From: Cryobacterium roopkundense
Lineage (GTDB): Bacteria > Actinomycetota > Actinomycetes > Actinomycetales > Microbacteriaceae
NCBI RefSeq assembly: GCF_014200405.1
Contig: NZ_JACHBQ010000001.1
Location: 3,472,001 to 3,536,000 of the forward strand
DNA length: 64,000 nt
Direction: 5' to 3'
The notes beneath the pieces were generated by a model that was not told the DNA's origin, made no database searches, and worked only from the letters and a program-made list of their open reading frames with translations. Shown here in pieces: positions 15,878 through 39,093 of this stretch. Position numbers and translations under genes: made by a program. Numbering within the stretch: position 1 is the stretch's first letter; each line of letters starts with the position of its first letter.

Positions 15878-17551
15878 GTGGACGCAAGACGTGAGCGCAT
15901 TGGAGCGTTTGGCACGGTGACGATGCCGGATGCTCTGTGGGATCGAACGAAGAAGATTTCCGCCGTGATCGCACCATTGGCGGCACAGAGCACTGTGGGC
16001 ACGGCTGCGGTCGATGCGGCTGCACTGTCGTTGGGGATTTCGCGCCGCCAGGTGTACGTCTTGATCAAGCGATACCGAGACGGCACGGGATTGCTGACAG
16101 ATCTGGCTCCGGCGCGTTCCTCGGGCGGGAAAGGCACCTGGCGGTTATCTGCTGAGGTGGAAGACCTTGTCCGCGAGATGGTGCGGAAGCAGTACCTGAC
16201 TCGGCAGAAGCGCAGCCTGGCGGCGGTATATCGCGACGTCGTCGCCGCGTGCCGGCTGCGGCAGCTTCCTGTCCCAGCCCGCAACACGGTCGAACGGCGG
16301 ATCCGGGAGTTGAGTCCGGTGGAGGTAGGTCGGCGCCGCGGCGGTCCAGATGCGGTTCGGTCCTTGCAGTCCGCTGGCGGCGATGTCCCGGTGATCGGCA
16401 AGATCCTGGAGCAGGTGCAGATCGATCACACCGTTATCGATGTCATCGTCGTCGACGAGCGGGAACGACGCCCCATCGGGCGGCCCTACTTGACCGCGGC
16501 AATCGACGTTTTCAGTCGATCCCTGGTGGGCATGGTCGTCACGTTAGAGGCTCCGTCGGCCGTGTCGGTGGGTCTGTGCCTCGTTCATGCGGCCACCGAT
16601 AAGCGGCCAGGGCTGGAGAGGTTGGGAGTTGACGTGCAGTGGCCGATGAGCGGGAAGCCACGGCAGTTGTATCTGGACAACGCCAGCGAGTTCAAGAGCG
16701 AAGCGTTACGCCGCGGGTGTGAGCAGCACGGAATCGAATTGGCGTACCGCCCGCCGGGCCGACCCCATTACGGCGGGATTGTGGAACGGGTGATCGGCAC
16801 GGCAATGCAGCAGGTTCATGAGCTTCCTGGCACCACGTTCTCCAACCCTGCCGAACGCGGCCGGTACGACTCCGACCGGAGGGCGATGCTGACGCTGCCC
16901 GAGTTGAAAAAATGGTTGACCCTTGCCGTAGCGACCTATCACGGCAGCATTCACAGCACGCTGGGCCAGACACCGGCAGGCCGGTGGGCTGAGGGCGTGG
17001 AGCAGACGGGAACACCGGCGGTGGTGTCGAACGCGAGGGCGTTCCTGGTCGATTTCCTCCCTGTCATTCGACGGACATTGACTCGAACGGGATTCGTCAT
17101 CGACCACGTCCACTATTTTTCCAACTCGCTGAAACCGTGGATCAGCCGGCGCAGCACCCTCGACCCGTTCCTCATCCGACGCGACCCCAGAGACATCAGC
17201 CGGATCTGGGTGTTGGAACCAGAAGGACACGCCTATATAGAGGTGCCGTATCGAACGATGGCCAACCCGGCGGTGAGTCTCTGGGAGCACAAGCGCGCCG
17301 TTGCACGGCTGCATGAACGCGGTGTCACGCAAGTGGATGAGGCCGCCCTGTTTCGGATGATCGAACAGATGAGACAGATCACCGACACCGCCTCAAGGAC
17401 CACCAAACGGATGCGTCGCGATGCCCAGCGGCGCGCGTTGGCTCCCCAGCCCACGACCGCTACCCGGTCGGCGGGTGCTGAGCCGCCACTATCTGGCGAG
17501 GTGTCATCAGAACCGGCGGCGGTTCGATTCGATCAGATTGAACAGTGGTGA
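15878..17551 (+). CDS. tniA: Transposase TniA (DDE, Mu/TnsB-like)
   Basis: 557 residues, GTG start. N-terminal DNA-binding region with an HTH-like segment (SLGISRRQVYVLIKRYRDGT), then an rve-type RNase H fold with the catalytic triad visible as QID (Asp183), YLDN (Asp267) and IVERV (Glu303), and a C-terminal Mu-transposase beta-barrel part. It cuts and joins the 3' ends of the element during replicative transposition together with TniB and TniQ. The stop overlaps the tniB start region. Ends with terminal iterons lie immediately upstream. Confidence 0.95.
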   Translation: MDARRERIGAFGTVTMPDALWDRTKKISAVIAPLAAQSTVGTAAVDAAALSLGISRRQVYVLIKRYRDGTGLLTDLAPARSSGGKGTWRLSAEVEDLVREMVRKQYLTRQKRSLAAVYRDVVAACRLRQLPVPARNTVERRIRELSPVEVGRRRGGPDAVRSLQSAGGDVPVIGKILEQVQIDHTVIDVIVVDERERRPIGRPYLTAAIDVFSRSLVGMVVTLEAPSAVSVGLCLVHAATDKRPGLERLGVDVQWPMSGKPRQLYLDNASEFKSEALRRGCEQHGIELAYRPPGRPHYGGIVERVIGTAMQQVHELPGTTFSNPAERGRYDSDRRAMLTLPELKKWLTLAVATYHGSIHSTLGQTPAGRWAEGVEQTGTPAVVSNARAFLVDFLPVIRRTLTRTGFVIDHVHYFSNSLKPWISRRSTLDPFLIRRDPRDISRIWVLEPEGHAYIEVPYRTMANPAVSLWEHKRAVARLHERGVTQVDEAALFRMIEQMRQITDTASRTTKRMRRDAQRRALAPQPTTATRSAGAEPPLSGEVSSEPAAVRFDQIEQW

Positions 17552-18462
17552 CGATGACCGACGACGCGGCCCCTGACCTGTCCCACCTGCATCCCGCGAT
17601 GCGCCAGGTTGCCCGGCTGCCGGCGGGCGAGCGGATCGAGCATATTCGTGCGGACCGCTGGATCGGCTACCCGCGAGCAGTCGCGACCGTCGCCCGGCTG
17701 GAAGCCCTGCTGGCGTGGCCCGATAAGCAGCGGATGCCGAATCTGTTGATCGTGGGACCGACGAACAACGGGAAGTCGATGATCGTGGAAAAGTTTCGCC
17801 GCGGTCACCGGCCGGTGACCGAAGCGGAGCGGGAACACATCCCCGTCCTGTGCGTGCAAATGCCCTCGGACCCGTCGGTCGTGCGGTTTTACATCGCGCT
17901 CCTCGCCGCGCTCGGCGCGCCCCTGCAACCGCGGCGACGCGTGGCCGAGGTGGAACAATTGTCGCTGAGTTTGCTGCGCTCGACAGGGGTGCGCATGCTC
18001 GTCATTGACGAGTTGCACAATGTTCTCGCCGGACAGAGCAACAGCCGCCGAGAATTCCTGAACCTATTGCGGTTCCTCGGCAACGAGCTGCGCATCCCGA
18101 TCGTGGGCGTTGGAACGCGGGAAGCCTATCTGGCCATCCGCTCCGATGACCAGCTCGAGAACCGATTCGAACCGGTCGTTCTTCCCCTGTGGCACGCCGA
18201 CGCCGACACGTTGTCGTTGCTGGCCAGCTTCGCCGCGGCTCTTCCACTGCAGCGCCCGTCCGTCATCGCCACCGACGACATGGCCCAGTATCTGCTCACT
18301 CGATGCGAGGGCACCATCGGGGAACTCACCCGACTGCTGACCGCTGCGGCGATCGCAGCAGTCGATAGCGGTGAGGAAAGCATCAACCGGCGCACCCTGA
18401 TCCTGGCCGACTACGTCGGTCCCACGGAACGGCGCCGGCTGTTCGAACGGGAACTGTTGTGA
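17545..18462 (+). CDS. tniB: Transposition ATPase TniB
   Basis: AAA+ ATPase of about 305 residues that chooses target DNA and activates TniA. Walker A is GPTNNGKS (residues 71-78), Walker B is MLVIDELHNV, and a sensor-like VGVGTREAYLAI follows. GTG at 17545 overlaps the end of tniA; ATG at 17554 (MTDDAAPDLS) is an equally good start. Its own stop overlaps the tniQ start, so tniABQ are translationally coupled. Confidence 0.94.
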   Translation: MVTMTDDAAPDLSHLHPAMRQVARLPAGERIEHIRADRWIGYPRAVATVARLEALLAWPDKQRMPNLLIVGPTNNGKSMIVEKFRRGHRPVTEAEREHIPVLCVQMPSDPSVVRFYIALLAALGAPLQPRRRVAEVEQLSLSLLRSTGVRMLVIDELHNVLAGQSNSRREFLNLLRFLGNELRIPIVGVGTREAYLAIRSDDQLENRFEPVVLPLWHADADTLSLLASFAAALPLQRPSVIATDDMAQYLLTRCEGTIGELTRLLTAAAIAAVDSGEESINRRTLILADYVGPTERRRLFERELL

Positions 18463-19658
18463 CCGCACCCCGCCGATGGCCGCTGCATCCCGTGCCTCTT
18501 CCTGGTGAGGCGCTTTCCTCCTGGCTTCGGCGTATTGCGGCGTGCTACAGCGCAGAACTTGAGGTGCTCGGTGATGACCTCGGCTTCACCCTCAGACCCG
18601 GGAGCCATGAGGACATCGACCTGGCACCGCCGCCGGGCATGATCGACGTTCTCACCAGTCGCACCGGCGTCGCCCCAGACCGGTTGCGGCAGATGAGTGT
18701 GGCCGGCTGGGTTCCCTGGCTCCTGGACGACATGCAGCCCAGCCCCGAGAGTTTCGCCACCTACACCCGACAGCTGTCGGTGCTGCGACCCGCTAACAGA
18801 TTCAAGCCACGCCTGGTCCCCAGCTGGCGGCCGTGGTTATCCTCGCATCTTCACTCTCGAGCGTGCCCAAAATGCGTCGCTGCCAGTGACTCGCCGAAAC
18901 CATATCTGCTGCTGTGGGCACTCCCTCTCATCTCCACCTGCCCCATTCACGGCTGCTGGCTTGAGGCGACCCGCGCGCCCCGTGGCTACTTTCGTCTCTG
19001 GGATTTCGATCCGCCGGTGCTACGAGCTGCTCCGGAACACCTCCTGAAGATGGACCAACGCACGCAGGACGCCTTCACCATTGGCCAAGTCGAACTGCCG
19101 CGACGCAGTGTGCACGCCGGGATCTGGTTCCGGCTGCTGCGCACCATCATCGACGAGCTCAGCTGCCCCCTGTCGGAGAACCACCCCGCCGACGCCAAGA
19201 TCATCCGGCAGATCTGGACACAGACCGGATATCGCGTCCGCGACGGGCAATCATCTTGGCACCCTTACGAACAGCACGCCGAATCGGTGCAGCAGCACAC
19301 CATGGAGGCCGCTGCGACCGCCGTCCTACTTCTGGAATCTGATGCCATCACCGGCTCGGGCACTGACGCAGCCCTCTTTCATCCGCTGCCCGAAATCACT
19401 CTCAGCGACGGAACGCTGCCGCATCCAACATCCATCCCAAACGGTGCCCTACCCACTCTGATGGATGCCCTCCAGGAGGCCGTCGAAGCAGCACGCCTCG
19501 ATCCCGCCGATGCACGCACCCTCTTCAACCTGGCAACCTACAAGCAAGACGACGCCGAACAGATCCACTACGCGGTGAGCCTGTTCCTCGAACTCGGCAT
19601 CCCCCTCGATTTTCATCACACAACACAAACCGGGGTGGGTTTACAGGACGTAGACTGA
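18459..19658 (+). CDS. tniQ: Target-selection protein TniQ
   Basis: 399 residues, GTG start overlapping the tniB stop by four bases. The N-terminal TniQ domain starts with PLPGEALSSWLRRIAACYSA. A zinc-binding region contains SRACPKCVAASDS and STCPIHGCWLEA, the usual CxxC and C(P)xHG pattern. TniQ is required for transposition of Tn402-type elements and is the family from which the CAST TniQ proteins derive. Length is normal for the family, so it appears intact. Confidence 0.93.
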   Translation: MTAPRRWPLHPVPLPGEALSSWLRRIAACYSAELEVLGDDLGFTLRPGSHEDIDLAPPPGMIDVLTSRTGVAPDRLRQMSVAGWVPWLLDDMQPSPESFATYTRQLSVLRPANRFKPRLVPSWRPWLSSHLHSRACPKCVAASDSPKPYLLLWALPLISTCPIHGCWLEATRAPRGYFRLWDFDPPVLRAAPEHLLKMDQRTQDAFTIGQVELPRRSVHAGIWFRLLRTIIDELSCPLSENHPADAKIIRQIWTQTGYRVRDGQSSWHPYEQHAESVQQHTMEAAATAVLLLESDAITGSGTDAALFHPLPEITLSDGTLPHPTSIPNGALPTLMDALQEAVEAARLDPADARTLFNLATYKQDDAEQIHYAVSLFLELGIPLDFHHTTQTGVGLQDVD

Positions 19659-19670
19659 ATGACGGGTTAA

Positions 19671-19713
19671 GTGACAATTTTTGACGCTGATCAAGTCGAC
19701 TGCACATTGTCAC
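19671..19713. promoter_or_regulatory. Probable res site subsite upstream of tniR
   Basis: GTGACAAT at 19671-19678 and ATTGTCAC at 19706-19713 are perfect 8-bp inverted arms in the only intergenic gap of the tni block, between tniQ and tniR. Tn5053-type elements have their resolution site exactly here, so this is probably a TniR-binding subsite that also overlaps the tniR promoter. A further half-like TGACAG lies at 19731. Confidence 0.6.
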
Positions 19714-19729
19714 GTATTCGACCGTATAA

Positions 19730-20389
19730 ATGACAGGGGTCTCCACCATGCTCGTGGGGTATATGCGCGTATCCAAAACTGACGGATCACAAAGCACCGA
19801 CCTGCAACGTGATGCGCTGCTCCTCGCCGGCGTCGACGCAGACCACCTTTATGAAGACCATGCTTCCGGGAAGAAGGACGACCGCCCGCAGCTGGCGGCG
19901 TGCCTGAAAGCGCTTCGAGACGGTGACACCCTTCTGGTCTGGAAACTCGATCGCCTCGGACGTGACCTCCGCCACCTGGTCAACACCGTGCACGACCTCA
20001 CCGACCGCGGCATTGGCCTGAAAGTCCTCACCGGGGAGGGCGCCGCGATTGACACTACGACCGCGTCCGGCAAGCTGGTCTTCGGGATCTTCGCTGCGCT
20101 GGCCGAGTTCGAACGAGCGCTGATCTCGGAGCGCACCATCGCGGGACTTACCGCGGCGCGCGCCCGCGGACGCAAAGGCGGCCGCCCATACAAAATGACC
20201 GCAGCCAAAGTGCGCACAGCAATGGCCGCGATGGGCCAGAAAGAGACGAAGGTCGGCGACCTGTGCAAGGAGCTCGGCATCACCCGGCAGACCCTGTATC
20301 GCCACGTGTCCCCGTCAGGCAAGCTCCGCCCAGACGGGAGCAAAGTCCTCACCAATCGAGAAAAGCCCACGCCGGATCACAGCAGGTAG
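19730..20389 (+). CDS. tniR: Serine resolvase TniR
   Basis: 219 residues from ATG 19730 (ATG 19748, MLVGYMRVSK, is an alternative). N-terminal serine-recombinase domain with the nucleophile in YMRVSKTDGSQ, followed by VWKLDRLGRDLRHLV and EFERALISERT, then a C-terminal HTH (VGDLCKELGITRQTLYRHVS). It resolves cointegrates formed by TniABQ at the adjacent res site. Orientation and position are canonical for Tn5053-like transposons. Confidence 0.93.
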   Translation: MTGVSTMLVGYMRVSKTDGSQSTDLQRDALLLAGVDADHLYEDHASGKKDDRPQLAACLKALRDGDTLLVWKLDRLGRDLRHLVNTVHDLTDRGIGLKVLTGEGAAIDTTTASGKLVFGIFAALAEFERALISERTIAGLTAARARGRKGGRPYKMTAAKVRTAMAAMGQKETKVGDLCKELGITRQTLYRHVSPSGKLRPDGSKVLTNREKPTPDHSR

Positions 20390-28412: not shown

Positions 28413-31400
28413 CTAGAGCCCGAGCCACTGACTTGCGTGGTGAATTCCAATTCCGAGTGCAGCCTCAACGAGCTCCCGCAGCACCACCGGGTCCGCCCCA
28501 GCGTCCTTCAACCTTCCGACCAGTGCTCCAAGTTCGTGGACAACGTGCCAGCCTGGATCTGAGGTCACAATCGTTCGCCGCTGGACGACGCCTGCAATTA
28601 GGTCTGCATTTGCCCTAATGAACTCCTCGGGCAGATCATCGAAGTTGGTCTTTGATCCGAGCGGGCCAGGAATGGCATCGGTTAAGGTCAAGGCGTCCGC
28701 GGCGGCAGGACCGCATCTGAGAGCCAGATCCCCCCACGCCGTCTTTTCGGAGCTGGACAGAGATCCTGGTACGAGTTGTGTTCGCCCTCGGAGGATCTCA
28801 CGTAACCAGGCGTTCCACACCCGCATGCTTTCGGCCGAATCCAGCTCAGAAAGTGCATAGGCGAGAGCCTCAAAGAAGCTTGCGAGGCCAGCGACTTCTC
28901 CGGCGGCTAGGAAGTCGATGAGCGCAGGTTTGTCGACAGAGGTTGCTGAAGACTGCGTGGCGATCGCTGCGAGAAGTTGCCAATACTGCTCTTCCACGCG
29001 GCTGTCAATCGCGCCGTGAGCGAGGGTGCTGGCATTAAGCAGCAGCTCCCAGAATCCGTCATCGAGCATACGGTCGTCGAGTCGAGGATGATAGAGAAAG
29101 CTCGTCCAAGCTTGATTCGCATGTGCCGCGTTTACGCTGTCGAAACCGGGGAAGACTTCTTGTTTCGTGTACTCCGGATCTGCTGCATAGAGAAAATACA
29201 CCTCTCCGGCGATCATTGCGAGGGGGCCCTCACCTGCCGCAGACGTTGTCCCGAGCATGGTGGACAGTGCTTCGCGCTCATTATCTGAGAGGCAGCTCCA
29301 ATCGTCCCTCGACACGCGCCACCTGAGCCGTATCCGGTTTACCCAATATTGCGCAATTAGGCCTGGCCACGTATTCAGCCCTATGGATGTCCAGTCGTCA
29401 GTATCTGGCTGTTCGAACGCATCAACATTCTGGTCCCAGACAAGTCTGCAAAGTCGGTCCAGCCGATCTAGTTCGTACGGAGGGCGCGAGTCGATTTTCT
29501 GGTCTACAGCCCCCAGCGCGAACTCGGCGATAGCCCGAGCGAGGTCGCTGTTGTCGCTGAGGCGTTCGACGCTACCTGTAGCCGTTGCAAGTTGAGTGTC
29601 ACTGAGCGTGCCGCTCGCCCACCCACGCAGGACTGCGGACGCGATGTCGGTCGCACGGTCGCCGGCCGGCACTCCAAGCAGATCCGCGCCAAGATCCGGA
29701 TGCTTCTCAACTACCAAACGAACCAACGACAAGGCATCGTCCCAGTCTGGCTGGCCGAATTCCCGCTCACTGTAGTCGCGATCAAGCAATGCGCTCATTG
29801 CGGCCGTCGCTCCCGAAGCCCTGATCAGGTTAACGAAGTCGTCCACTTCGAAGGGGAGGGTGCCACCCCAGACACCTGAGGTCATGAAACGATCAAGGTC
29901 TGGGTGTGGCCGGATGCCCATGTCCGGTTCCTCCACCAGGATCGCCTCGAGAGCCACCTGAAGTTCAGGCCAGTCAGTGACGGAACGCGTCAACCATTCA
30001 AGAATGTCGAAAATGCCACGTCGTCGAAATCTCTCAGCATTTGGCAAGTCGACAGGCGGCGCGCCTTCGAGGACGCGATTGAGAATTTGCTCGCGGTGTT
30101 TGCTGTCCAGTCCGGGGCTGGCCTTGGCGAGAAATCTAAAAATTTCGTGTTTGGCTTGGCGGTCGAAAAGCGAGACGGCGGACAACAGTATGTCCGCCTT
30201 GTCGTTGCTCTCCGTTTGCGCGTCTTCTGTCAGCGCATGAACCGCGAGCCGCCGGAAAATCGGGAAGGGATCCCTTAGCCAACGATTCACGATAGAGGTG
30301 TCGGAGGTTCCGAGCAGCACACTCACATCACGGAGGCCATCGATTAGCGCGCTTTCGAAATCGCGCCCATCGTCTTGCGTGTGAGGCTCTATTGCTGATC
30401 GGCGGAAGGACCAGCTGTCCCAAGTGGAATCGGGTTTGAAACATTCCAGAAGGTCATAACCGTCTCGGAGCGCCTGTTCCAACACCTGCAGAACATTCAC
30501 CGCGCCTGCTTCGAAGTCGGTGCGTGCAGCATCCAGCATCACCTTGACATCGCTTTCATTACCGGACCAGGCAATTTTGGCATCAATGATGGGCGGCGCG
30601 TCGGCGTCGGGCGATGCGAGCCATGAACGGGCTTCGGCGAGCACGAGCCGCGGAAGAACCGCTCGGCGCAAGAACGGCATTACTGATGCACTGCCCAACG
30701 GCGCCGCCTGGGCAATCATCCAGCTCTGCTCGGGCTCGATTGCATCCGTCCGCAACGCCGCCGAAAATATCGTCGCAACCCGGACAGAGAGAGCTGGGTT
30801 GGATTGCCGGAGGTCGTACGTGCCATAGGACAGTGCCTGCATGAGGACCTGGTTTGCTACTGGCCCCAAACGAGCAATCGTCCCAAGCGCAAGCTCGACG
30901 GAAGATTCGTTGAGAAGGTAGTTCCCAGCGAACCAGTTTGCGAGCTGCCTCGACGAATCCGAAGTGAGGCTGCCAGCGGCGAACAGGTCAGAGAATGAAC
31001 GCTGTTGCTCAGCCCAGGAAAGCCAGTCCCGACCTGTAGCTTCATCAGCGAACGCTCGCACGCCCACCGGCGTAGTGATCGCACTACGCAGGTAGTCCTC
31101 ATCGACAGGAGTCTTCGGCAGACCACCACCGACGATAGATTTCACCCGCGACCGGTGATCGAGATGTCCCATTGCCAGCCGGTCGGACCATGCGTCCAGG
31201 ACCTGCGGCAGAGCCTCATGGTCGTTATCAGCTGGATACTGAACCGGCGTGATGTGAAGATCTATCCACTTGTGGTGTTCTCCGATGTCGGTCAGTACAA
31301 AGCGCTTTGTGGTCGGGGGCAGGCCGCGAGCGATGTACTTCATCACAGTGTCGTCGTGTGAGTATCCGATGAACAACACCACACGATTCAGGAAAAGTTC

Positions 31401-31955
31401 CTGCACAAACCTCCGCGCCCATCCATCAGTCAGGTAAGCGCGCCCAAAGTCACCATCAGTGAGCACCAGCTCATTTGCGGGTCGTAGAACGGTCCCGTGA
31501 AGGTGCACGATTCCGGAGAATTCACGGGCGAGCGGAACGGCTGGCCCGTTGAAACGATCGCCCAGGTCGATTCCTGCCGCGGTAGCGGCATACGTAAGAT
31601 GCTCGTCGAAATTGGTGGTGACGAGCCGGGTCGACGCTGTATTGCTGACGAGTCGGACGATCGCGGTATGGGTCTTGTTGTGCAAAGACGCGGGTGATCC
31701 AAGAATTCCTTTCGCCTGCTCTCGGGCAATCGGGGCGCGATCGATGAGCCTACCGAGGTAGGCATCAGCCGACATTGTCTCTTCGCTGAATGTCTCCCCG
31801 TGAAGCTCTGCAACTTGGGAAGCGAGCCCGTTGAACAAAGGCAGGTTGGAGGGGGCGTTTCGTGAGACACCGGCGCCCACGAACAGCACGAGAGAACCGT
31901 CTAGAGAAGAGGCCACTAGTTCCTCGGGAACGTCGACGTCCGCAGTAAATCTCAT
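28413..31955 (-). CDS. Large SIR2-domain defence protein (DUF4020-like)
   Basis: 1180 residues. The N-terminal 270 residues form a SIR2-like Rossmann fold: VLFVGAGVSRNAP (27-34), LVTTNFDEHL (111-120), IVHLHGTV with the catalytic His (about 153) and LFIGYSHDD (194-202). The remaining 900 residues are helical repeats (for example WLRDPFPIFRRLAVHALTED) and resemble the DUF4020-type tails of SIR2 anti-phage proteins. By analogy with defence-associated sirtuins, the enzyme would deplete NAD+ after sensing phage through the C-terminal part. It is a stand-alone gene. Codon use is less GC-biased than in the core. Confidence 0.88.
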   Translation of the reverse strand: MRFTADVDVPEELVASSLDGSLVLFVGAGVSRNAPSNLPLFNGLASQVAELHGETFSEETMSADAYLGRLIDRAPIAREQAKGILGSPASLHNKTHTAIVRLVSNTASTRLVTTNFDEHLTYAATAAGIDLGDRFNGPAVPLAREFSGIVHLHGTVLRPANELVLTDGDFGRAYLTDGWARRFVQELFLNRVVLFIGYSHDDTVMKYIARGLPPTTKRFVLTDIGEHHKWIDLHITPVQYPADNDHEALPQVLDAWSDRLAMGHLDHRSRVKSIVGGGLPKTPVDEDYLRSAITTPVGVRAFADEATGRDWLSWAEQQRSFSDLFAAGSLTSDSSRQLANWFAGNYLLNESSVELALGTIARLGPVANQVLMQALSYGTYDLRQSNPALSVRVATIFSAALRTDAIEPEQSWMIAQAAPLGSASVMPFLRRAVLPRLVLAEARSWLASPDADAPPIIDAKIAWSGNESDVKVMLDAARTDFEAGAVNVLQVLEQALRDGYDLLECFKPDSTWDSWSFRRSAIEPHTQDDGRDFESALIDGLRDVSVLLGTSDTSIVNRWLRDPFPIFRRLAVHALTEDAQTESNDKADILLSAVSLFDRQAKHEIFRFLAKASPGLDSKHREQILNRVLEGAPPVDLPNAERFRRRGIFDILEWLTRSVTDWPELQVALEAILVEEPDMGIRPHPDLDRFMTSGVWGGTLPFEVDDFVNLIRASGATAAMSALLDRDYSEREFGQPDWDDALSLVRLVVEKHPDLGADLLGVPAGDRATDIASAVLRGWASGTLSDTQLATATGSVERLSDNSDLARAIAEFALGAVDQKIDSRPPYELDRLDRLCRLVWDQNVDAFEQPDTDDWTSIGLNTWPGLIAQYWVNRIRLRWRVSRDDWSCLSDNEREALSTMLGTTSAAGEGPLAMIAGEVYFLYAADPEYTKQEVFPGFDSVNAAHANQAWTSFLYHPRLDDRMLDDGFWELLLNASTLAHGAIDSRVEEQYWQLLAAIATQSSATSVDKPALIDFLAAGEVAGLASFFEALAYALSELDSAESMRVWNAWLREILRGRTQLVPGSLSSSEKTAWGDLALRCGPAAADALTLTDAIPGPLGSKTNFDDLPEEFIRANADLIAGVVQRRTIVTSDPGWHVVHELGALVGRLKDAGADPVVLRELVEAALGIGIHHASQWLGL

Positions 31956-32075: not shown

Positions 32076-32299
32076 ATGGGCCATCGAGGACGCTTCGGCG
32101 GAGGCAAATCACGCGCCCATTCGATCCCCAACGACGTCCAGATCACTGTCTGGGACCCGGCTGGCACCGGACGTGTGCCGAGTACGGACGTGGCTTCGTG
32201 CCTGAGGCGATGGCGACCGTAGAAGGAATGAAGATCGCGTTTGTCTGCGCCAAGCACGGCGTTCACAGCCTCGTGGACCCGTTCGAGGACGCGCGTTAG
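32076..32299 (+). pseudogene. Small protein, probably frameshifted
   Basis: ATG 32076 opens MGHRGRFGGGKSRAHSIPND followed by VQITVWDPA. The later part of the same stretch, in another frame, reads WHRTCAEYGRGFVPEAMATV, then KIAFVCAKHGVHSLVDPFED and stops at 32297-32299. Each half looks protein-like and neither is complete alone, so a one-base indel around 32163 is suspected. The Cys and Cys-Lys-His pattern could bind zinc. Family unknown. Confidence 0.35.
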
Positions 32300-32315
32300 T
32301 GGGAGACTACGAGCC

Positions 32316-32849
32316 ATGACTGACTATTCCCCGGGACAGACGCCCACGTTCTGGGACCCCAACCCCAGTGCGATGACATACAGATTCTTGCTGGGATGCA
32401 CGACTCATGCTTCGCTGACCGATCCCCCGCTCGTCGCCATCGGGATGAACCCCTCCCGTGCCGACGAGCACGCTTCGGACAAGACGGTCAATCGGATCAT
32501 CGAAGCGAGCGTTGATCACGGCTTCCCGGGGTGGATCATGCTCAACCTGTATCCGGAGCGAGAGACGTCACCGGGGGATCTCTCAGACTTCGACCCCGCA
32601 CTTTCGGCAGCGAACTGCGCTGCAATCGAACGGGTCATCGTCGCTTACAGAGTCTCCGAAGTCCTCGGCGCCTGGGGGAATCCCAACTCGACGATACGTC
32701 TCGCTAAGGCCGACGTACTCGCAACGCTGACACGGCTCGGAGTGCGGGTCTTCTACCTCGACGACCTCACTGCCGCAAATGAACCACGGCATCCGACTCC
32801 ACGTACAGGCCGGCTACCCATGGCAGGACCGAAGCGCTATCTGACCTGA
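32316..32849 (+). CDS. DUF1643 protein
   Basis: 177 residues from ATG 32316. Matches DUF1643 by its opening FWDPNPSAMTYRFLLGC, the IGMNPSRADEHASDKTVNRI block and GWIMLNLYPERETSP. The family is common in phages, plasmids and defence regions and has been compared with nucleotide- or DNA-modifying enzymes, but its activity is not settled. It precedes the putative small RNA and the Abi gene on the same strand by about 120 bases. Confidence 0.82.
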   Translation: MTDYSPGQTPTFWDPNPSAMTYRFLLGCTTHASLTDPPLVAIGMNPSRADEHASDKTVNRIIEASVDHGFPGWIMLNLYPERETSPGDLSDFDPALSAANCAAIERVIVAYRVSEVLGAWGNPNSTIRLAKADVLATLTRLGVRVFYLDDLTAANEPRHPTPRTGRLPMAGPKRYLT

Positions 32850-32897: not shown

Positions 32898-32947
32898 ACT
32901 ACATCCCCCACGCCTCTCCTTGGAAGCGCACTTGGGGGATTTTCTTT
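32898..32947 (+). ncRNA. Candidate small structured RNA upstream of the Abi gene
   Basis: A roughly 50-nt transcript is predicted from the promoter to a terminator formed by ATCCCCCA (32903-32910) and TGGGGGAT (32933-32940), perfect 8-bp arms followed by TTTCTTT. The 22-base loop contains CCTTGG and its neighbourhood could pair further. AbiF/Abi_2 HEPN genes are often preceded by a conserved RNA (abiF RNA motif), proposed as the RNA antitoxin. Position, size and the 21-base distance to the Abi start fit. Alternatively it is just the terminator of the DUF1643 gene or an attenuator. Confidence 0.45.
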
Positions 32948-33367
32948 GCCCGGACATAAGGAGCACTGATGCGTCGACCGCCTCGAGAGCCGCGGCCGCG
33001 CGGCACTCTTCACTACGACAAATCAGCTCTGGGCCTCGACGAATTAGTCGATCGGCTGTCCGAACGCGGCCTGCTGATTCCAGATCCGGACCGGGCCTCA
33101 CGATATCTGCGGCACATTGGCTACTTCCGTCTCTCGCCTTACACGATCCCATTTCAGCAGGGACAGCCAGATCATCTGTTCCGCGACGGAGCGGCATTCG
33201 ATGACGTACTGGATCTTTACATCTTTGACCGCGCACTGCGGCTTCTCGTCATGGACGCATTAGAGCGTGTCGAGGTCGCAGTTCGCGCGGCGCTCACCGA
33301 TCATATGGCGACGACGTACACAGATCCGCACTGGTACGTCGACCCGTCCCACTTCCGTGATCTCAGA

Positions 33368-33475
33368 AGGCATGTCCCCTTTACGATTTCAGTGAGATAG
33401 CGATTGCTCCATTGCAGACGGTCATGCGCCACTTAGATATGGGCATCTCACTGAAATCGTAAGGGGGAGGCATGT
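33368..33475. repeat. 8-bp target duplication AGGCATGT flanking the MITE
   Basis: AGGCATGT occurs at 33368-33375 and again at 33468-33475, directly at the two tips of the 92-base element. An 8-base duplication suggests mobilisation by an ISL3-, IS256- or IS6-type transposase (family knowledge, not proof). Confidence 0.85.
33376..33467. mobile_element. 92-bp MITE inserted in the Abi gene
   Basis: Terminal inverted repeats of 23 bases: left CCCCTTTACGATTTCAGTGA plus GAT, right (read inward) CCCCCTTACGATTTCAGTGA plus GAT, one mismatch. The inside is 46 bases without coding capacity. No transposase with these ends is in the window, so it is non-autonomous. Confidence 0.88.
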
Positions 33476-34162
33476 ACGACTTCTGGACATGGTTCGTGAG
33501 ACTTCCGAGAAGAGGCTTTCTAGCACCGCCGAGCGGGTAGGAGTGTCCCTTGATTTTGAAGATGACGAGCTCCTTCTAGACGATCGCGCGGTGGTCCACC
33601 GCTCCGCGCTTGAACACTATTTACTGACCTACGGCACCCCTGAACTGCCGCCCTCGTGGCTCATGGTTAAGGCGCTTACTATCGGTCAGCTCAACGGCGC
33701 GATCGACAACTTGCGGCTGCGTTCGGACAAGAGCGCGATAGCAGCCCGCATCGGCCTGACCGAGCCGGTGCTCCTGTCATGGATGCGAACGTATGTGCGC
33801 GTCCGAAATATTTGCGCACATCATGGTCGCCTATGGAACGTTGGAATCGGTGTCAACCCTGCGATCCCGAACTCAAGTTCGATCTCCTGGCTGAAGGATG
33901 ACCATGCCCTGCCTGCGCGCTCGGAAAAGCGCCTTTACCTGGTGCTGGTGTCTCTCCAAGCAGTCCTCGACGTAGTATCACCACGCAGCACCTGGGCACA
34001 GCGCCTGCATGACCTCGTGAGCGCGCGTCCAGCTATGAACCTGGCAAGTATGGGCATTCCCAAGACGTGGACGGACGATGAATTTTGGGCTCGACATCTC
34101 GCCAAATAGGAGAGTCGGTCGTAAGCCCACCTGCACTGCGCGAGATCCCCGCAACAGTCAAC

Positions 34163-35191
34163 TCACACCAGACGCCAGGTCTCGCAGTCAAGCAAGTGGA
34201 GCACGGCTTGCGGGTTGCCGACCAGCTGGACGAGTCCGCGCAACTTTGCGGGATACGCGCTGGGTTCCGTGTGAAAATTCGCTTCCTCGAAGGCTGCACT
34301 GATTCTGTCGCGCAGCTCCAACGGCAAATGTGTGGACGCGTCCGTTTCTATTCTCTGTGCTTCCACGGCGAGAGCTGAAGGCATACGTCGCAGACGTTCT
34401 ACGGCTGTCTTTGGAAACGGCGCGGGCCTCGAAGCCGCGTCAAGCAGCCGTTCAGTGCCCTCAACCACCCACGGGTCACTCAGAGGTACTTCTAGGGGTA
34501 TCCGGATCCGCTGGACCACGTGTAACGCATCGATCTCAACTGCAAGGGAGATGCTTGAGGGGTCCTCGTGTGTATTCACGTAGCGGAACGTGTTCACTCC
34601 CACACCGCACACGTCGGCCAAGTGAGCATCGCCCACGAAGTCAGTCGGTTCCTCTTGCACTCCGAACTCGATAACGCAGTCCGGGCTGAGCCGCACTCGG
34701 TAGAGGTAGAACTGTTCAGCTGATCCGTCTTGGTTTCGCATTCGCCTGAACATATTCTCTACCGCGGCCTCATATGTACCGATGTGGAGCGCCTTCGCCC
34801 TCTGCCGTTCTGCCCATCGTCCGAGACCCCCGCCCCCACTACCCAGCTGCTCCATGCGCTTCTTGGTTACGTCTGACAGCAATGCAGTTGGGTCGAAGTC
34901 CCTGTTCGGCCAATCGGCGTGGGTCGTCGAGTGATACCAGTATTGTTTGCGCACCAGCGAATCATCATGCGCTGCATCCTCTTGTGCGACCCAGAAGTTG
35001 GGGTGATCCTCGCTCTGGCAGTCGGTGCCGCAGCACGGGCAGCCGACGAGCGCCCGATCGAAGCGTTCCAGCCACTCGGCGTTGACGCTCCACTCAAGGC
35101 GACAGGACCCACACCGCATTCTGCGGGGTCTTGCAAAGTCGATTTCTCTCTCGATCACAGTTCGAGCATGACATGCGCCGCCTACGACCAA
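34163..35191 (-). CDS. Zinc-ribbon protein with possible ADP-ribosyltransferase-like fold
   Basis: 342 residues (ATG 35119, MRCGSCRLEW, is an alternative start). The N-terminus carries a zinc ribbon (MRCGSC ... GCPCCGTDC). A second domain follows with YWYHSTTHADW, ALHIGTYEAAVENMFRRM, FYLYRVRLS and TFRYVNTHEDPSSISLAV. The order H-S-T, then an H-x-G-T/Y block, then an acidic residue in the third block resembles ART/RES-type ADP-ribosyltransferases, but the match is weak. It is in the same direction as the large nuclease-LRV gene, 138 bases after it. Possible accessory or effector of that system. I do not recognise the family. Confidence 0.65.
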   Translation of the reverse strand: MVVGGACHARTVIEREIDFARPRRMRCGSCRLEWSVNAEWLERFDRALVGCPCCGTDCQSEDHPNFWVAQEDAAHDDSLVRKQYWYHSTTHADWPNRDFDPTALLSDVTKKRMEQLGSGGGGLGRWAERQRAKALHIGTYEAAVENMFRRMRNQDGSAEQFYLYRVRLSPDCVIEFGVQEEPTDFVGDAHLADVCGVGVNTFRYVNTHEDPSSISLAVEIDALHVVQRIRIPLEVPLSDPWVVEGTERLLDAASRPAPFPKTAVERLRRMPSALAVEAQRIETDASTHLPLELRDRISAAFEEANFHTEPSAYPAKLRGLVQLVGNPQAVLHLLDCETWRLV

Positions 35192-35329: not shown

Positions 35330-38300
35330 TTAAGTAGGAACGTCGGGGTCCGTGTCATACGCGACCGCGCGGAGTGCGGCCGGCACGCCGCCTGTTTCAC
35401 TAGCCAAGGCCGAACGAGTTGCCCGAGCTGCGGTCGCGATGTATCCCACGAGCGGGTCCTCGTCCTCGACGAGGGCGTCCATGACGCCAACCGGCGCGTC
35501 GGGGTTCATCGCGACCAGAAGGGCAAGGTCGATGCTCCTTCCCGCGAGTGCGGCCAGAACCTCGGGTGGCGTCACACCGTTGAATGCGACTGCTTGTCGC
35601 ACTTCCGCGTCCGTATCGTCGGCGAGAAGAGCGAGGGTCAACGCAGGCGTATTCGGGTTGGCAGCGACGGCGCGTCTCACCCGCGCGCTACCCCGCTCGC
35701 CACCGAGAAGGCAAAGGATGTCCGGGGGCGTGCGGCGGTCGAGGGCGACGTGCACCCTCACTTCGGCGCGCGTGCTTGCGGCCATTTCCTCGAGCTTTGC
35801 TCTGCTCGTGGGTGACACCGGGTGTGCTTGGTCCCAGGCGGCCGTGGCCTTCTCGCGGTACTCCGCGGTCGTCGCGGGATTTCTGAACGCAGCTGTCCGC
35901 ACGGCCCGGTCGTCATCGACGAGCAGGTCACCCAGCACAGAAGCATCAAGCCGCGGGCATTCCGCGGCTCGTGCCCGCACTGTGGGTTCGTCGTCGAACG
36001 CCAAGACAACTACCAGGGCTAGGTCTAGGCTCTCGTTGCCCGCCGCGGCCGCCCGCACCTGATGAACCGAATCGGCAGCCAGTGTTGAAAGCATCTCAGA
36101 TGGCGTCCGGGAATTCCCCGCGACGACGCTGCGCACGTACTCGTCGGCACTCCTGGCGAGACGCACCAGGGTCCGAGTGCCCGTGCGTTCGTGTTCGGCT
36201 GCGATTCGGCGGAGGTCTGGGTCACGAACGCGGCTCTTGGAGAGTCGCTCAAGTGAGTCTTCAAACAGTTCGTCCGTCAGCTCGAGGTCAGCACGTGTTG
36301 CGACGGTTCTGAGCACATCGAGCAACTCCTCGTCGGTGATGGTCTTGAGGAGGGTCTCGGCAGTGGGGGCCGCGAGTGCGACAGGCGCTCTCGGGTTTGC
36401 GACAACCGCTAGGCGGACAGACAGGTCCTGATCTTCAGCCAGGCCAACGAGCGTCTCGAAGGGCGTTGCCGCGTTTCCCGCCACTGCTACGCGCACTCGA
36501 GCATCTCGGTCGCGGGCGAGGAGCCTCGCGGCTGCAGAGGGGACTTTACTCGAGGCTGCGAGCCGTTCGCGAGGCTCGAAGGACTTCGTTGAACGCATCC
36601 GTGGCAAAAGAAGAGCGAGATCTTCTGCAGGCAGAGCGGAGTTCTCGATAAGACCCACGAGCACGTCGCCAGATTTCGTTCCCGCAAGGTCGCGGAGATG
36701 GGCAAGAGGCGTCGAGGGGTGAGATGCGACAAGCTCCAGGGTCTGCTTGTCGAACTCGCCAGGGGTGCGGCTGCGAACCCAGGACGGCGGGTTGTCCCCC
36801 TCCGTCCGGAACCGGATGCGCTCCTTCCGAGAGGCCGCAAGCTCACCGAGCAGACCACCGAAGAGATCGTCTGGAACGTCGACACTGCGCTGAAGCGCCG
36901 ACCAGCGAATCTCGGGATCGGCATCAGCGAGAAGCGCGGCCAGCGCTGAGGACTCCATGACGGGCAGGTCCACAGCGACTATCTGTCTCACCCAGTCCGG
37001 GCGGTCCCTACGGATGAGGTCCATCTTCACGATGTCGGGGATTCCCACCATTAGCGCGTCGGGAATAGCGGTCGACCGCTTCATTTGCCCTGCCCAGTAA
37101 TCACTGGCCATCGGGAGAGGAATGCGAGATCTAATGCCCGACGTGGCACCCCTCGTGAGAGCCAGGAACTGCCAAAGCCATCGCCTGTCGATCGCCCCGT
37201 CATCGCGGTCCTGCAAGATCCGTACGACGGCGCGCCCTGAACCGCGGGGCTGGACAAGGTCATCGCCGGTCACCGATTCGATGGGCAGGTGCTCCGGTGA
37301 GAAACTCATGATGACAGGTGCCGCCCCCAACGACTTGGGTTGAGCTTTGGGCGTCCGGGGATTGGCCGTCGCCACACGTCGGACGACGCTGCTTCGATCT
37401 TGGGCCAGCGCTGTCAGCACGTCCGTTGGCGCGCTTTCATTACCCGCTACGCCCTCGCGGACTGATGCGTATCTGTCCCGCGCTAGCTCCCGCATCGTCG
37501 CCTCGGGGAGCGTCGCGTTCCGCCCGATACGAAAGCGGATGCCCGAATCAACGTGCCTTGCCAATTCAATGAGCATGTATTGCGGTGTGTTCTTGTTATC
37601 CGCGAGGATCTGGATTCTGCGATGCTGCGTGACTGGGGCGTGGATACCCATCTGCTGACCGTCAGCTGCCTTGAGAAATCCCTGTCGCAGCGTGGGCAGC
37701 AGCTCATCAGGGTCTCCGCCGAGGAGTATCTCTAGCCCCCACGTCTTCGTCAGGCCCTGTCTGGGTAGCCAGACTCCGACAGTCCGGATGCGCAGGGAGT
37801 CGTCACAGTCGAGCATGACGTAGCCGAGGAGTTGACGGAGGAAGTCGCGCAGCTTCGGAACTGTGAGGTCCGCGTACGCCTTGCTGTCGATGAGTACGTC
37901 CCCGATGATCCAATCGGCATCCGCGCCACCGACGAGCATCGAACCCGTGAACACTGGGTTCGGCTCGAAACGCTCACCACTGGCTATCTGCATACGCCAT
38001 TGGTCTACCTGAGCGCCGTTTGACTCCATCATCGAGCGGAGATCTTCCAAGGAGGGCGTATCGAGGTTGTCCGCGAACTCCCGGCCGTCGGCGGCCAGAT
38101 CGCACGCTTTCCCGACCGACCCGTTGAGCACTTTTTTCATGTCGCGATGCATCTGTTCGCAGTGGGCGAGCAAAAGCGCCGCACGGTCCAGGTCGGCGTT
38201 GCTGGAGGGACTCTCGAGGATCTGCACGGCCACGTCGAACACCTCCGAGATGATCTTCGCCCGGTGGGAGCCGTTCTCGACTTCATCTTGGTGCATGTAC

Positions 38301-38581
38301 AGCTCTGCAACGCCCGTAGCTGCAGCCGAGTTATGAGCATCGAATCCCCCCAACGCGATGCGCACACGGAAGTCGATGGCCGTTCCCGCCCGTGCAACAT
38401 CCACCCCAGAGAGGGGTAAAAGGATCGCCCTTTTCGCCGCGAGCTCGACAAGGCCCAGCGTTTCGGCCGCCGCTTGCCTCCCGTCTTTTCCGCCCCTATC
38501 CGTTGACAAGACCGGTGAGATCCCGTCGATGTACGCGCGTATAGGCGAACCAGAATCCCCTAATTCATCCGTGAGGCTCAC
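35330..38581 (-). CDS. PD-(D/E)XK nuclease fused to LRV/HEAT-like repeats
   Basis: 1083 residues. Residues about 1-200 are helical. A PD-(D/E)XK-type core follows: GGADADWIIGDVLIDSKAYA, with Asp223 and Asp232-Ser-Lys234, then the typical LRDFLRQLLGYVMLD helix. From about 320 to the end, some twenty short repeats of the pattern (V)AGNxxTPxxxLxxLAxDxxxxVR are seen, e.g. VAGNSRTPSEMLSTLAADSV, VAANPNTPALTLALLADDTD. This is the signature of LRV/HEAT-like solenoids. Likely an NA-cleaving effector with a large sensor scaffold in the defence island (inference). No transmembrane segment. No other domain is seen. Confidence 0.82.
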   Translation of the reverse strand: MSLTDELGDSGSPIRAYIDGISPVLSTDRGGKDGRQAAAETLGLVELAAKRAILLPLSGVDVARAGTAIDFRVRIALGGFDAHNSAAATGVAELYMHQDEVENGSHRAKIISEVFDVAVQILESPSSNADLDRAALLLAHCEQMHRDMKKVLNGSVGKACDLAADGREFADNLDTPSLEDLRSMMESNGAQVDQWRMQIASGERFEPNPVFTGSMLVGGADADWIIGDVLIDSKAYADLTVPKLRDFLRQLLGYVMLDCDDSLRIRTVGVWLPRQGLTKTWGLEILLGGDPDELLPTLRQGFLKAADGQQMGIHAPVTQHRRIQILADNKNTPQYMLIELARHVDSGIRFRIGRNATLPEATMRELARDRYASVREGVAGNESAPTDVLTALAQDRSSVVRRVATANPRTPKAQPKSLGAAPVIMSFSPEHLPIESVTGDDLVQPRGSGRAVVRILQDRDDGAIDRRWLWQFLALTRGATSGIRSRIPLPMASDYWAGQMKRSTAIPDALMVGIPDIVKMDLIRRDRPDWVRQIVAVDLPVMESSALAALLADADPEIRWSALQRSVDVPDDLFGGLLGELAASRKERIRFRTEGDNPPSWVRSRTPGEFDKQTLELVASHPSTPLAHLRDLAGTKSGDVLVGLIENSALPAEDLALLLPRMRSTKSFEPRERLAASSKVPSAAARLLARDRDARVRVAVAGNAATPFETLVGLAEDQDLSVRLAVVANPRAPVALAAPTAETLLKTITDEELLDVLRTVATRADLELTDELFEDSLERLSKSRVRDPDLRRIAAEHERTGTRTLVRLARSADEYVRSVVAGNSRTPSEMLSTLAADSVHQVRAAAAGNESLDLALVVVLAFDDEPTVRARAAECPRLDASVLGDLLVDDDRAVRTAAFRNPATTAEYREKATAAWDQAHPVSPTSRAKLEEMAASTRAEVRVHVALDRRTPPDILCLLGGERGSARVRRAVAANPNTPALTLALLADDTDAEVRQAVAFNGVTPPEVLAALAGRSIDLALLVAMNPDAPVGVMDALVEDEDPLVGYIATAARATRSALASETGGVPAALRAVAYDTDPDVPT

Positions 38582-39048: not shown

Positions 39049-39093
39049 CTCTTACTCGAAAGGTCACCGGATCGACGCCGGTCGGGGCCACCA
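39049..39093 (+). tRNA. 3' half of tRNA-Lys(CTT): probable attachment-site remnant
   Basis: From 39049 the sequence folds as the 3' part of a tRNA: anticodon loop CTCTTAC (anticodon CTT), 3' anticodon stem TCGAA, variable loop AGGTC, T-arm ACCGG-ATCGACG-CCGGT, acceptor strand CGGGGCC, discriminator A and CCA. The 5' half is absent: upstream bases do not pair with TCGAA (TTCGA would be needed) nor with the acceptor strand (GGCCCCG). The break at the anticodon loop is a typical tyrosine-integrase crossover position. This is therefore an att scar, not a functional tRNA. Confidence 0.75.

Follow-up and report, generated by a model that had tools for sequence, protein, structure and literature searches.

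Bacterial immune proteins of the Avs/bNACHT kind, and similar repeat-sensor proteins, carry an effector at one end and a repeat solenoid at the other. Nucleases of the RecB/Cas4 type hold a four-cysteine iron-sulfur set, and LRV repeats are, to our knowledge, a fold with little known function. Here we describe a gene of Cryobacterium roopkundense in which a putative RecB/Cas4-like nuclease domain and an array of LRV repeats share one chain. It lies at 35330..38581 on the minus strand of a 64-kb stretch (contig NZ_JACHBQ010000001.1, positions 3472001-3536000), called the window below, to which our coordinates refer, and it encodes 1083 amino acids from a GTG start, with the N-terminal PD-(D/E)XK-type nuclease domain followed by the repeats. 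We propose, with moderate confidence, that its product is a single-protein immune nuclease in which the LRV solenoid would gate a metal-dependent DNase of the RecB/Cas4-like kind.

Two models of the PADLOC collection come close to the nuclease part. RTasPDDEXK (PDLC03797), listed with the DRT reverse-transcriptase systems, has a homologous nuclease core, but its model of 226 positions is too short for an LRV array, and the loci of family members (34 were compared) lack a recurrent partner gene. PDC-S61 (PDLC05052), a phage defence candidate, is a distant homologue with a model of about 250 amino acids and no array. The RecB/AddB nucleases (PDDEXK_1, PF12705) and Cas4 have a like order of motifs, and hhalign brings the motifs into register, though at a low probability; in contrast to them, the protein described here has Asp in place of the motif-I His, and its three cysteines in residues 1-310 leave no four-cysteine set. 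Known LRV proteins (PF01816, 1LRV) have the same type of repeat, the 1lrv chain being 244 residues long. The outline is also that of Avs/bNACHT proteins, but Pfam finds no STAND nucleoside triphosphatase (NTPase) or other NTPase domain at E<=1, and, in contrast to restriction-modification systems, no constant methyltransferase partner occurs in the 34 loci.

A solenoid sensor joined to a nuclease effector is a known kind of protein; what appears new is a layout built on a nuclease module without a Pfam match, and this architecture and its genomic habitat are well supported by the sequences. The earlier note on this DNA knew of no named defence system with the layout, and indeed PADLOC, Pfam and NCBIfam hold no full-length model of it, but the nuclease domain is not wholly new, being a distant relative of RTasPDDEXK and PDC-S61. 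Searches of the literature for LRV or solenoid repeats together with nucleases or defence found no paper on this layout, supplementary tables lying outside their coverage, so that a list of predictions may already hold it. A search on RTasPDDEXK found no paper, and one on PDC-S61 led to PMC11514479; passages of PMC11719660, and PMC9252829, in which a term search gave no matches, added nothing.

Identity of the nuclease domain

The open reading frame (ORF) at 35330-38581 that had been reported on the minus strand is a real gene, with 132 homologues at E<=1e-3 in a search with the full protein; the 120 homologues listed of these are 41-100% identical to it and cover 82-100% of the query. The N termini of homologues read MSLTxxLxDxxSP, a comparison that makes the GTG at 38581 the likely start, and a scan for sigma-70 promoters found 0. 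On the full protein, Pfam at E<=1 gave LRV (2.7e-14), LRV_2 (3.4e-12), a sub-threshold HEAT match and nothing else; the NCBIfam scan gave no match, and PADLOC gave a single weak one, RTasPDDEXK over residues 196-278 (E 0.0066). The view that a nuclease and a solenoid stand in one chain is borne out by the motif, by profile matches and by the LRV models.

There is strong reason to regard residues 1-303 (37673..38581, minus strand) as a PD-(D/E)XK-type nuclease domain, and this module also occurs alone and fused to UvrD. Its most conserved part, the predicted catalytic core, spans residues 206-300 (37682..37966, minus strand) and reads NPxFxGS..GGAD221xD223W..LID232xK234..Q250LLGY254..LD..R274; mean pairwise identity among the 119 long members is 0.70 in residues 206-303. 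The order of motifs is one that we take to be of the RecB/Cas4 type, namely G...(H/D), GxxD, (D/E)xK and QxxxY, and the position that is usually His in motif I of RecB is Asp here, in GTAxDxRxR. The core had earlier been placed at residues 219-260, a stretch that does contain D223, D232-x-K234 and, after them, a helix bearing Q250-LLGY254; the domain itself is larger, about 1-303, and shorter homologues (L034-L040) match it over residues 1-299 to 1-303.

Conservation of the active site can be followed in two sets. Among 121 close members D221, D223, K234, Q250, Y254 and D258 are invariant, position 232 carries Asp in 109 and Glu in 12, and position 142 carries Glu in 117 and Asp in 4. A diverse alignment of 25 modules (12 LRV-fused, 10 free and 3 from plasmids, 2 of these helicase-fused), reaching down to 23% identity, keeps the same six residues invariant together with R146, R274 and R299; here position 232 is D in 23 and E in 2, position 142 is E in 23 and D in 2, and position 70 is D in 24. 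The D...(D/E)-x-K of the PD-(D/E)XK superfamily and the Q250 and Y254 of the QxxxY that follows it are found in 121/121 close and 25/25 diverse members. These counts bear on the idea that the domain is degenerate, catalytically dead and used as a scaffold, for which the Asp at the usual motif-I His position could be cited; had activity been lost, some member should have changed D223, D/E232 or K234, and since the active site is fixed we regard this idea as highly improbable.

Profile comparisons point the same way. Every one of the 25 diverse members gives an RTasPDDEXK match at E<=0.1 (best 9.6e-11); for PDC-S61 the same threshold yields 10 of the 25 (best 3.8e-9, over positions 42-236 of 253). 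A further comparison used hhalign against RecB/AddB-type PDDEXK_1 domains taken from 30 loci and cut around a GxxD...(D/E)xK pattern: it aligned LID232SK and QLLGY with VIDFKT and QLGTY at a score of 22.1, which none of 60 controls reached (59 column-permuted profiles and 1 reversed; best 19.3, reversed profile 17.6), at a probability of just 1.3% despite that lead. The PD-(D/E)XK signal that the earlier note led one to expect is present through RTasPDDEXK and PDC-S61, and is weaker by hhalign against PDDEXK_1. No Pfam model matched the nuclease domain in 11 proteins scanned, and PDDEXK_1 was not found at E<=1 in the Cryobacterium protein.

The LRV array

The repeats were recognised as LRV-type, and this is upheld by Pfam LRV, by LRV_2 and by the match of the family profile to the solved LRV structure 1lrv (E 4.3e-13), which a single-sequence search with the Cryobacterium protein did not find at E<=1. 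Pfam LRV scores 52.9 bits against a cut-off of 21.6, which places the tandem repeats above the curated threshold. A family-trained LRV model scores 14 repeats of the Cryobacterium protein at more than 3 bits, fewer than the "about twenty" suggested earlier, and finds 9 partial matches of lower score; 121 members have a median of 14 repeats (range 10-17). The repeats form three blocks on the minus strand: block A at residues ~327-411 (37349..37603), block B, partly degenerate, at ~545-735 (36377..36949), and block C, conserved towards the C terminus, at ~775-1045 (35447..36259). Residues ~413-545 (36947..37345) hold no recognisable LRV repeat, and their part 413-485 is the most variable stretch of the protein. 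Mean pairwise identity among the 119 long members is 0.57 in residues 304-412, 0.22 in 413-485, 0.46 in 486-600, 0.41 and 0.43 in the middle of the array and 0.58 in 931-1050.

Within the repeats variation is ordered. Across 13 of them, variation peaks at positions 9, 10, 13, 14 and 17, with a mean entropy of 2.5-2.9 bits, and positions 2, 4, 12 and 15 are almost fixed (0.2-0.6 bits). This pattern fits a recognition surface, but any solenoid would show part of the pattern.

In another reading the array would bind or wrap DNA instead of sensing a signal of infection. The protein, working on its own much as a restriction enzyme with no methylase partner would, could then be a structure-specific nuclease to which foreign DNA is directly recognisable. 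The repeats that adjoin the nuclease have a basic isoelectric point (pI 11.0 in residues 311-415, and 9.5 in 600-740), the helicase-fused relatives described below presumably act on DNA, and the loci show no recurrent partner gene with which self DNA might be modified. Taken over its full length, in contrast, the array is acidic (pI 5.65 in 311-1083 and 4.47 in 930-1083), a constitutive cutter without a mark of self would probably be toxic, and the highly variable repeat positions suit a changing protein partner better than a DNA backbone. We consider a DNA-wrapping array unlikely, if worth keeping in mind, and favour a solenoid that senses and gates.

The module alone and fused to a helicase

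A scan of genome contigs with an alignment of 85 family sequences gave 30 loci. The match extends into the LRV array in 17 (L017-L033; it covers residues 1-873 in L026, and the gene is split in L021), it ends at residue 299-303 in 7 (L034-L040), and in 6 (L041-L046), which are distant relatives and include metagenome-assembled genomes (MAGs) labelled Chloroflexi, Anaerolineae and Bacillota, it falls within residues 1-325. Because matches in these other loci stop at 299-303 or within 1-325, residues 1-303 can be considered a separable module. The LRV-fused form occurs in Micrococcales and the module alone in other phyla. A split pair, with a free nuclease beside a separate LRV gene, was considered and rejected, as the LRV model finds none beside stand-alone copies; LRV arrays joined to other effectors were also sought, but in 30 LRV_2 loci of the order (~3 kb each) this nuclease is absent and the family-trained model counts at most two repeats in any ORF.

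On plasmids, tblastn matched 22 records, 14 of them from Streptomyces, and in 8 of these the annotation names the matched gene a UvrD helicase; no match covered 80% of the full protein in 72,556 plasmid records. Two Streptomyces plasmids (L047, 934-3351, and L049, 5925-8324) each carry one ORF of about 800 amino acids with UvrD domains in the first 461 residues and the module at the C terminus. A search with the L049 protein returned 1702 records, 8 of which covered at least 80% of it, and among the 40 best of the 1702, 13 reach the end of the nuclease and 27 cover the helicase part alone. Since these matches include both helicase-only and nuclease-bearing forms, the module joins and leaves a helicase, and its place at the C terminus of a UvrD helicase makes DNA the likely substrate of the domain. 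In 16 plasmid records matching the nuclease domain, the match lies less than 4 kb from the end of the record in 4 and less than 10 kb in 7. The UvrD-nuclease fusion is perhaps an enzyme that processes the ends of linear plasmids. As to carriage by phages, 50,697 phage records gave 0 matches, and of 80 pattern matches in IMG/VR none was confirmed.

Distribution and transfer

The gene is rare. With E<=1e-30 as threshold, matches occur in 4 of 398 family genomes and in 4 of 396 from the order (the own genome is counted in both, and some matches are the free module). Besides the own genome, 4 of 36 congeners carry a nuclease-bearing match, and 3 of the 4 copies are broken: G035 is intact, G030 is split with a stop, G019 is truncated with a stop, and G025 keeps a remnant of 150 residues. 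Intact proteins from further Cryobacterium strains are present among the homologues of the protein search.

A gene tree of 16 full-length proteins mixes three families. Cellulomonas groups with Cryobacterium and Agromyces (support 83/82 for the fork of Cellulomonas and Cryobacterium, 99/99 for the set including Agromyces), a Microbacterium falls inside an Arthrobacter group, Leucobacter falls inside Microbacterium, and Paeniglutamicibacter stands with Microbacteriaceae. Judged by this tree and its distribution, the gene is a mobile accessory gene that has spread between families. An ordinary host nuclease of DNA repair or recombination, with a tail for protein interaction, would agree with the RecB/AddB-like motif order and with the UvrD fusion. 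Against it stand the many genomes that lack a match (394 of the 398 in the family, 392 of the 396 in the order), the patchy occurrence within the genus, a tree that contradicts taxonomy, and the PDDEXK_1 genes that all 25 genomes searched already possess; a core repair role was rejected on distribution, which disfavours it strongly, and we rate it as very unlikely.

Genomic neighbourhoods

If the protein acts in defence, its genes might be expected to lie near other defence genes, and in other genomes members do. A constant partner gene was sought and rejected: in a clustering of 650 crude gene calls from the 34 loci (L002 and L004 repeat L017 and L026) no family occurs in more than 6, and resolvases are the family that reaches 6. 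For a wider comparison we assembled 108 neighbours, namely 107 of the 169 candidates lying up to 6 kb away in 17 loci, small, very long and distant candidates having been dropped by hand, and in addition a resolvase whose gene overlaps the start of the nuclease gene in L028. The control was 108 of 176 random chromosomal genes of the same order; these had been drawn from 17 stretches, of which 16 are represented. At E<=1e-8 the neighbours matched 242 PADLOC families and the control 52, counts that overlap because one gene can match many models and that are therefore not gene numbers; total length was near equal (42,018 and 42,337 residues). Kinase models of PD-T4-6, each with a single member, make up 19 of the 25 families listed of the 52 in the control.

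Individual neighbours can be placed as well. UzuA lies within 3.7 kb in L025 and L026, and a broken UzuA lies at 0.7 kb in L023; UzuA is also present elsewhere in other genomes, 7 of 16 having a match. A methyltransferase stands 0.4 kb from the nuclease gene in L033. PDC-S06, weakly ABC-ATPase-like, occurs once each in only 2 of 16 genomes, at 7341-9683 of L026, 0.5 kb from the LRV-nuclease gene, and at 16431-18605 of L024, 3.4 kb from it. In Streptococcus thermophilus ST55, PDC-S61 stands three ORF numbers from PDC-S06 (PMC11514479, Table 3), and a functional pairing of PDC-S06 with the nuclease domain is possible. Altogether a placed defence-type neighbour is found in 6 of 18 loci including the Cryobacterium island (four models were placed, and DUF1643 was not counted); in L028 a relative of the DUF1643 gene of that island directly adjoins the nuclease gene. 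Further defence-type families among those listed, not assigned to loci, are NaeI, GmrSD, HEPN, NsnA, PD-T4-2 and Lmu, and the Pfam tally of neighbours also holds housekeeping types (dehydrogenase, transporter and TPP enzyme). Methyltransferase families listed reach 2 of 108 neighbours each, with no constant one across the 34 loci. No reverse transcriptase stands among the 25 families listed of either the PADLOC (242) or the Pfam (95) tally, no dedicated reverse-transcriptase model having been searched. Matches to AriA, mad3 and MTase_III were dropped as generic, with the exception of the strong adjacent match in L033.

Proposed function

A defence role is likely from these neighbourhoods and the distribution. 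The N-terminal domain would belong to the RecB/Cas4-like branch of PD-(D/E)XK nucleases and act as a metal-dependent DNase, and the C-terminal LRV solenoid would keep it inactive or off target at rest. The trigger might be a sign of invasion, such as a protein of a phage or plasmid, or DNA of unusual structure, and the released nuclease would then degrade DNA, either that of the invader or all DNA in the cell. A nuclease that does no harm at rest would have to be gated, and the array is the sole other part of the protein. We infer catalysis, action on DNA, sensing and gating by the array and a defence outcome from the features set out above.

More tentatively, the protein may be an immune receptor without an NTPase switch, in which the LRV solenoid directly gates a RecB-like nuclease and which represents the array-fused branch of an unnamed modular domain. 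Elsewhere this domain stands alone or, on plasmids, on a UvrD helicase, and each form would have a different module for recognition or processivity.

Several observations weigh against an immune nuclease gated by its repeats. The Cryobacterium domain alone matches RTasPDDEXK weakly (E 0.0011), the full-length L031 protein gave no RTasPDDEXK match at E<=0.1 in a second scan of ten constructs, no Protein Data Bank chain matches the nuclease domain by sequence (the best, at E 0.22, is unrelated), and the low hhalign probability belongs here too. The array is not hypervariable as a whole, its identity being 0.41-0.58 per LRV block. The overlapping family counts of the neighbourhood comparison come from tallies that list 25 families of the 242 and 25 of the 52, with controls taken from other genomes than the neighbours, and generic PADLOC models occur widely (mad3 matches 4 of 108 proteins in each set, AriA 16 of 16 genomes and MTase_III 15 of 16). 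Moreover, the enrichment mixes many unrelated systems and may say only that the gene lives in islands.

The Cryobacterium island

The gene had been described as part of a defence cluster with Abi and SIR2 neighbours; a Dsr1-like SIR2 gene and an Abi_2 gene are indeed present, but the latter is disrupted. The SIR2-domain neighbour (28413..31955, minus strand, 1180 amino acids) matches Pfam SIR2_2 (3.1e-18) and PADLOC Dsr1 (6.1e-54), the best Dsr1 stretch being residues 1-321 of 1180, with two further stretches also matching. A DUF1643 gene (32241..32849) lies 2.5 kb from the nuclease gene. The AbiD/AbiF-type Abi_2 gene (32970..34109, plus strand) is in two pieces, which match PF07751 1-85 and 110-184 and are separated by a short inverted-repeat stretch at ~33376-33467, read by eye. 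Directly upstream of Abi_2, at 32904-32940, there is a sub-threshold match to abiF RNA (26.7 bits against a cut-off of 37, E 0.3). Downstream of the nuclease gene and on the same strand, a neighbour of 342 amino acids (34163..35191, minus strand) matches no Pfam family at E<=0.01 and has a zinc-ribbon-like cysteine pattern and a HIGT...YLYRV stretch, which we take to resemble ADP-ribosyltransferase-like families. As a constant partner this gene was rejected, having no cluster mate in other loci.

The surroundings carry marks of mobility. A fragment of the 3' end of tRNA-Phe (39056..39092, plus strand) lies ~475 bp beyond the start of the nuclease gene, followed by pfkB, and is likely the remnant of an attachment site that marks the island's right edge. 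An intact copy of tRNA-Phe stands ~860 kb from the fragment, at C1:4375440, whereas in the congener G030 the distance between tRNA-Phe and the same pfkB region is 3 kb, which suggests a rearrangement after insertion. To the left of the nuclease gene are IS21-type genes (24.7-27.1 kb), and at 15878-20389 on the plus strand stands a transposon set of a transposase with a Mu-type C terminus, TniB, TniQ and a resolvase, presumably Tn5053-like.

This setting, with the nuclease gene so close to the tRNA-Phe remnant at the edge of an island that holds TniB/TniQ, IS21 and resolvase genes, lends some weight to a nuclease that serves the mobile element by helping it to transfer, to replicate or to keep out rival elements, a role conceivable also for the helicase-fused copies of Streptomyces plasmids; the plasmid matches near record ends (4 and 7 of the 16) can be read in the same way. 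Against this, even resolvases reach just 6 of the 34 loci, and neither the 50,697 phage records nor IMG/VR gave a confirmed copy, nor the 72,556 plasmid records a match at 80% coverage. Service to a mobile element seems to us quite unlikely, and we retain the proposal of a single-protein immune nuclease gated by its LRV solenoid.

Significance

If this proposal is true, LRV repeats would gain a role as immune sensors, and bacterial immunity would include a single-chain receptor and effector that needs neither an NTPase nor a kinase or second messenger. A name for the nuclease domain, for which no Pfam model was found in the 11 proteins, would serve to annotate genes of Actinomycetota as well as genes from MAGs that carry Chloroflexi and Bacillota labels.

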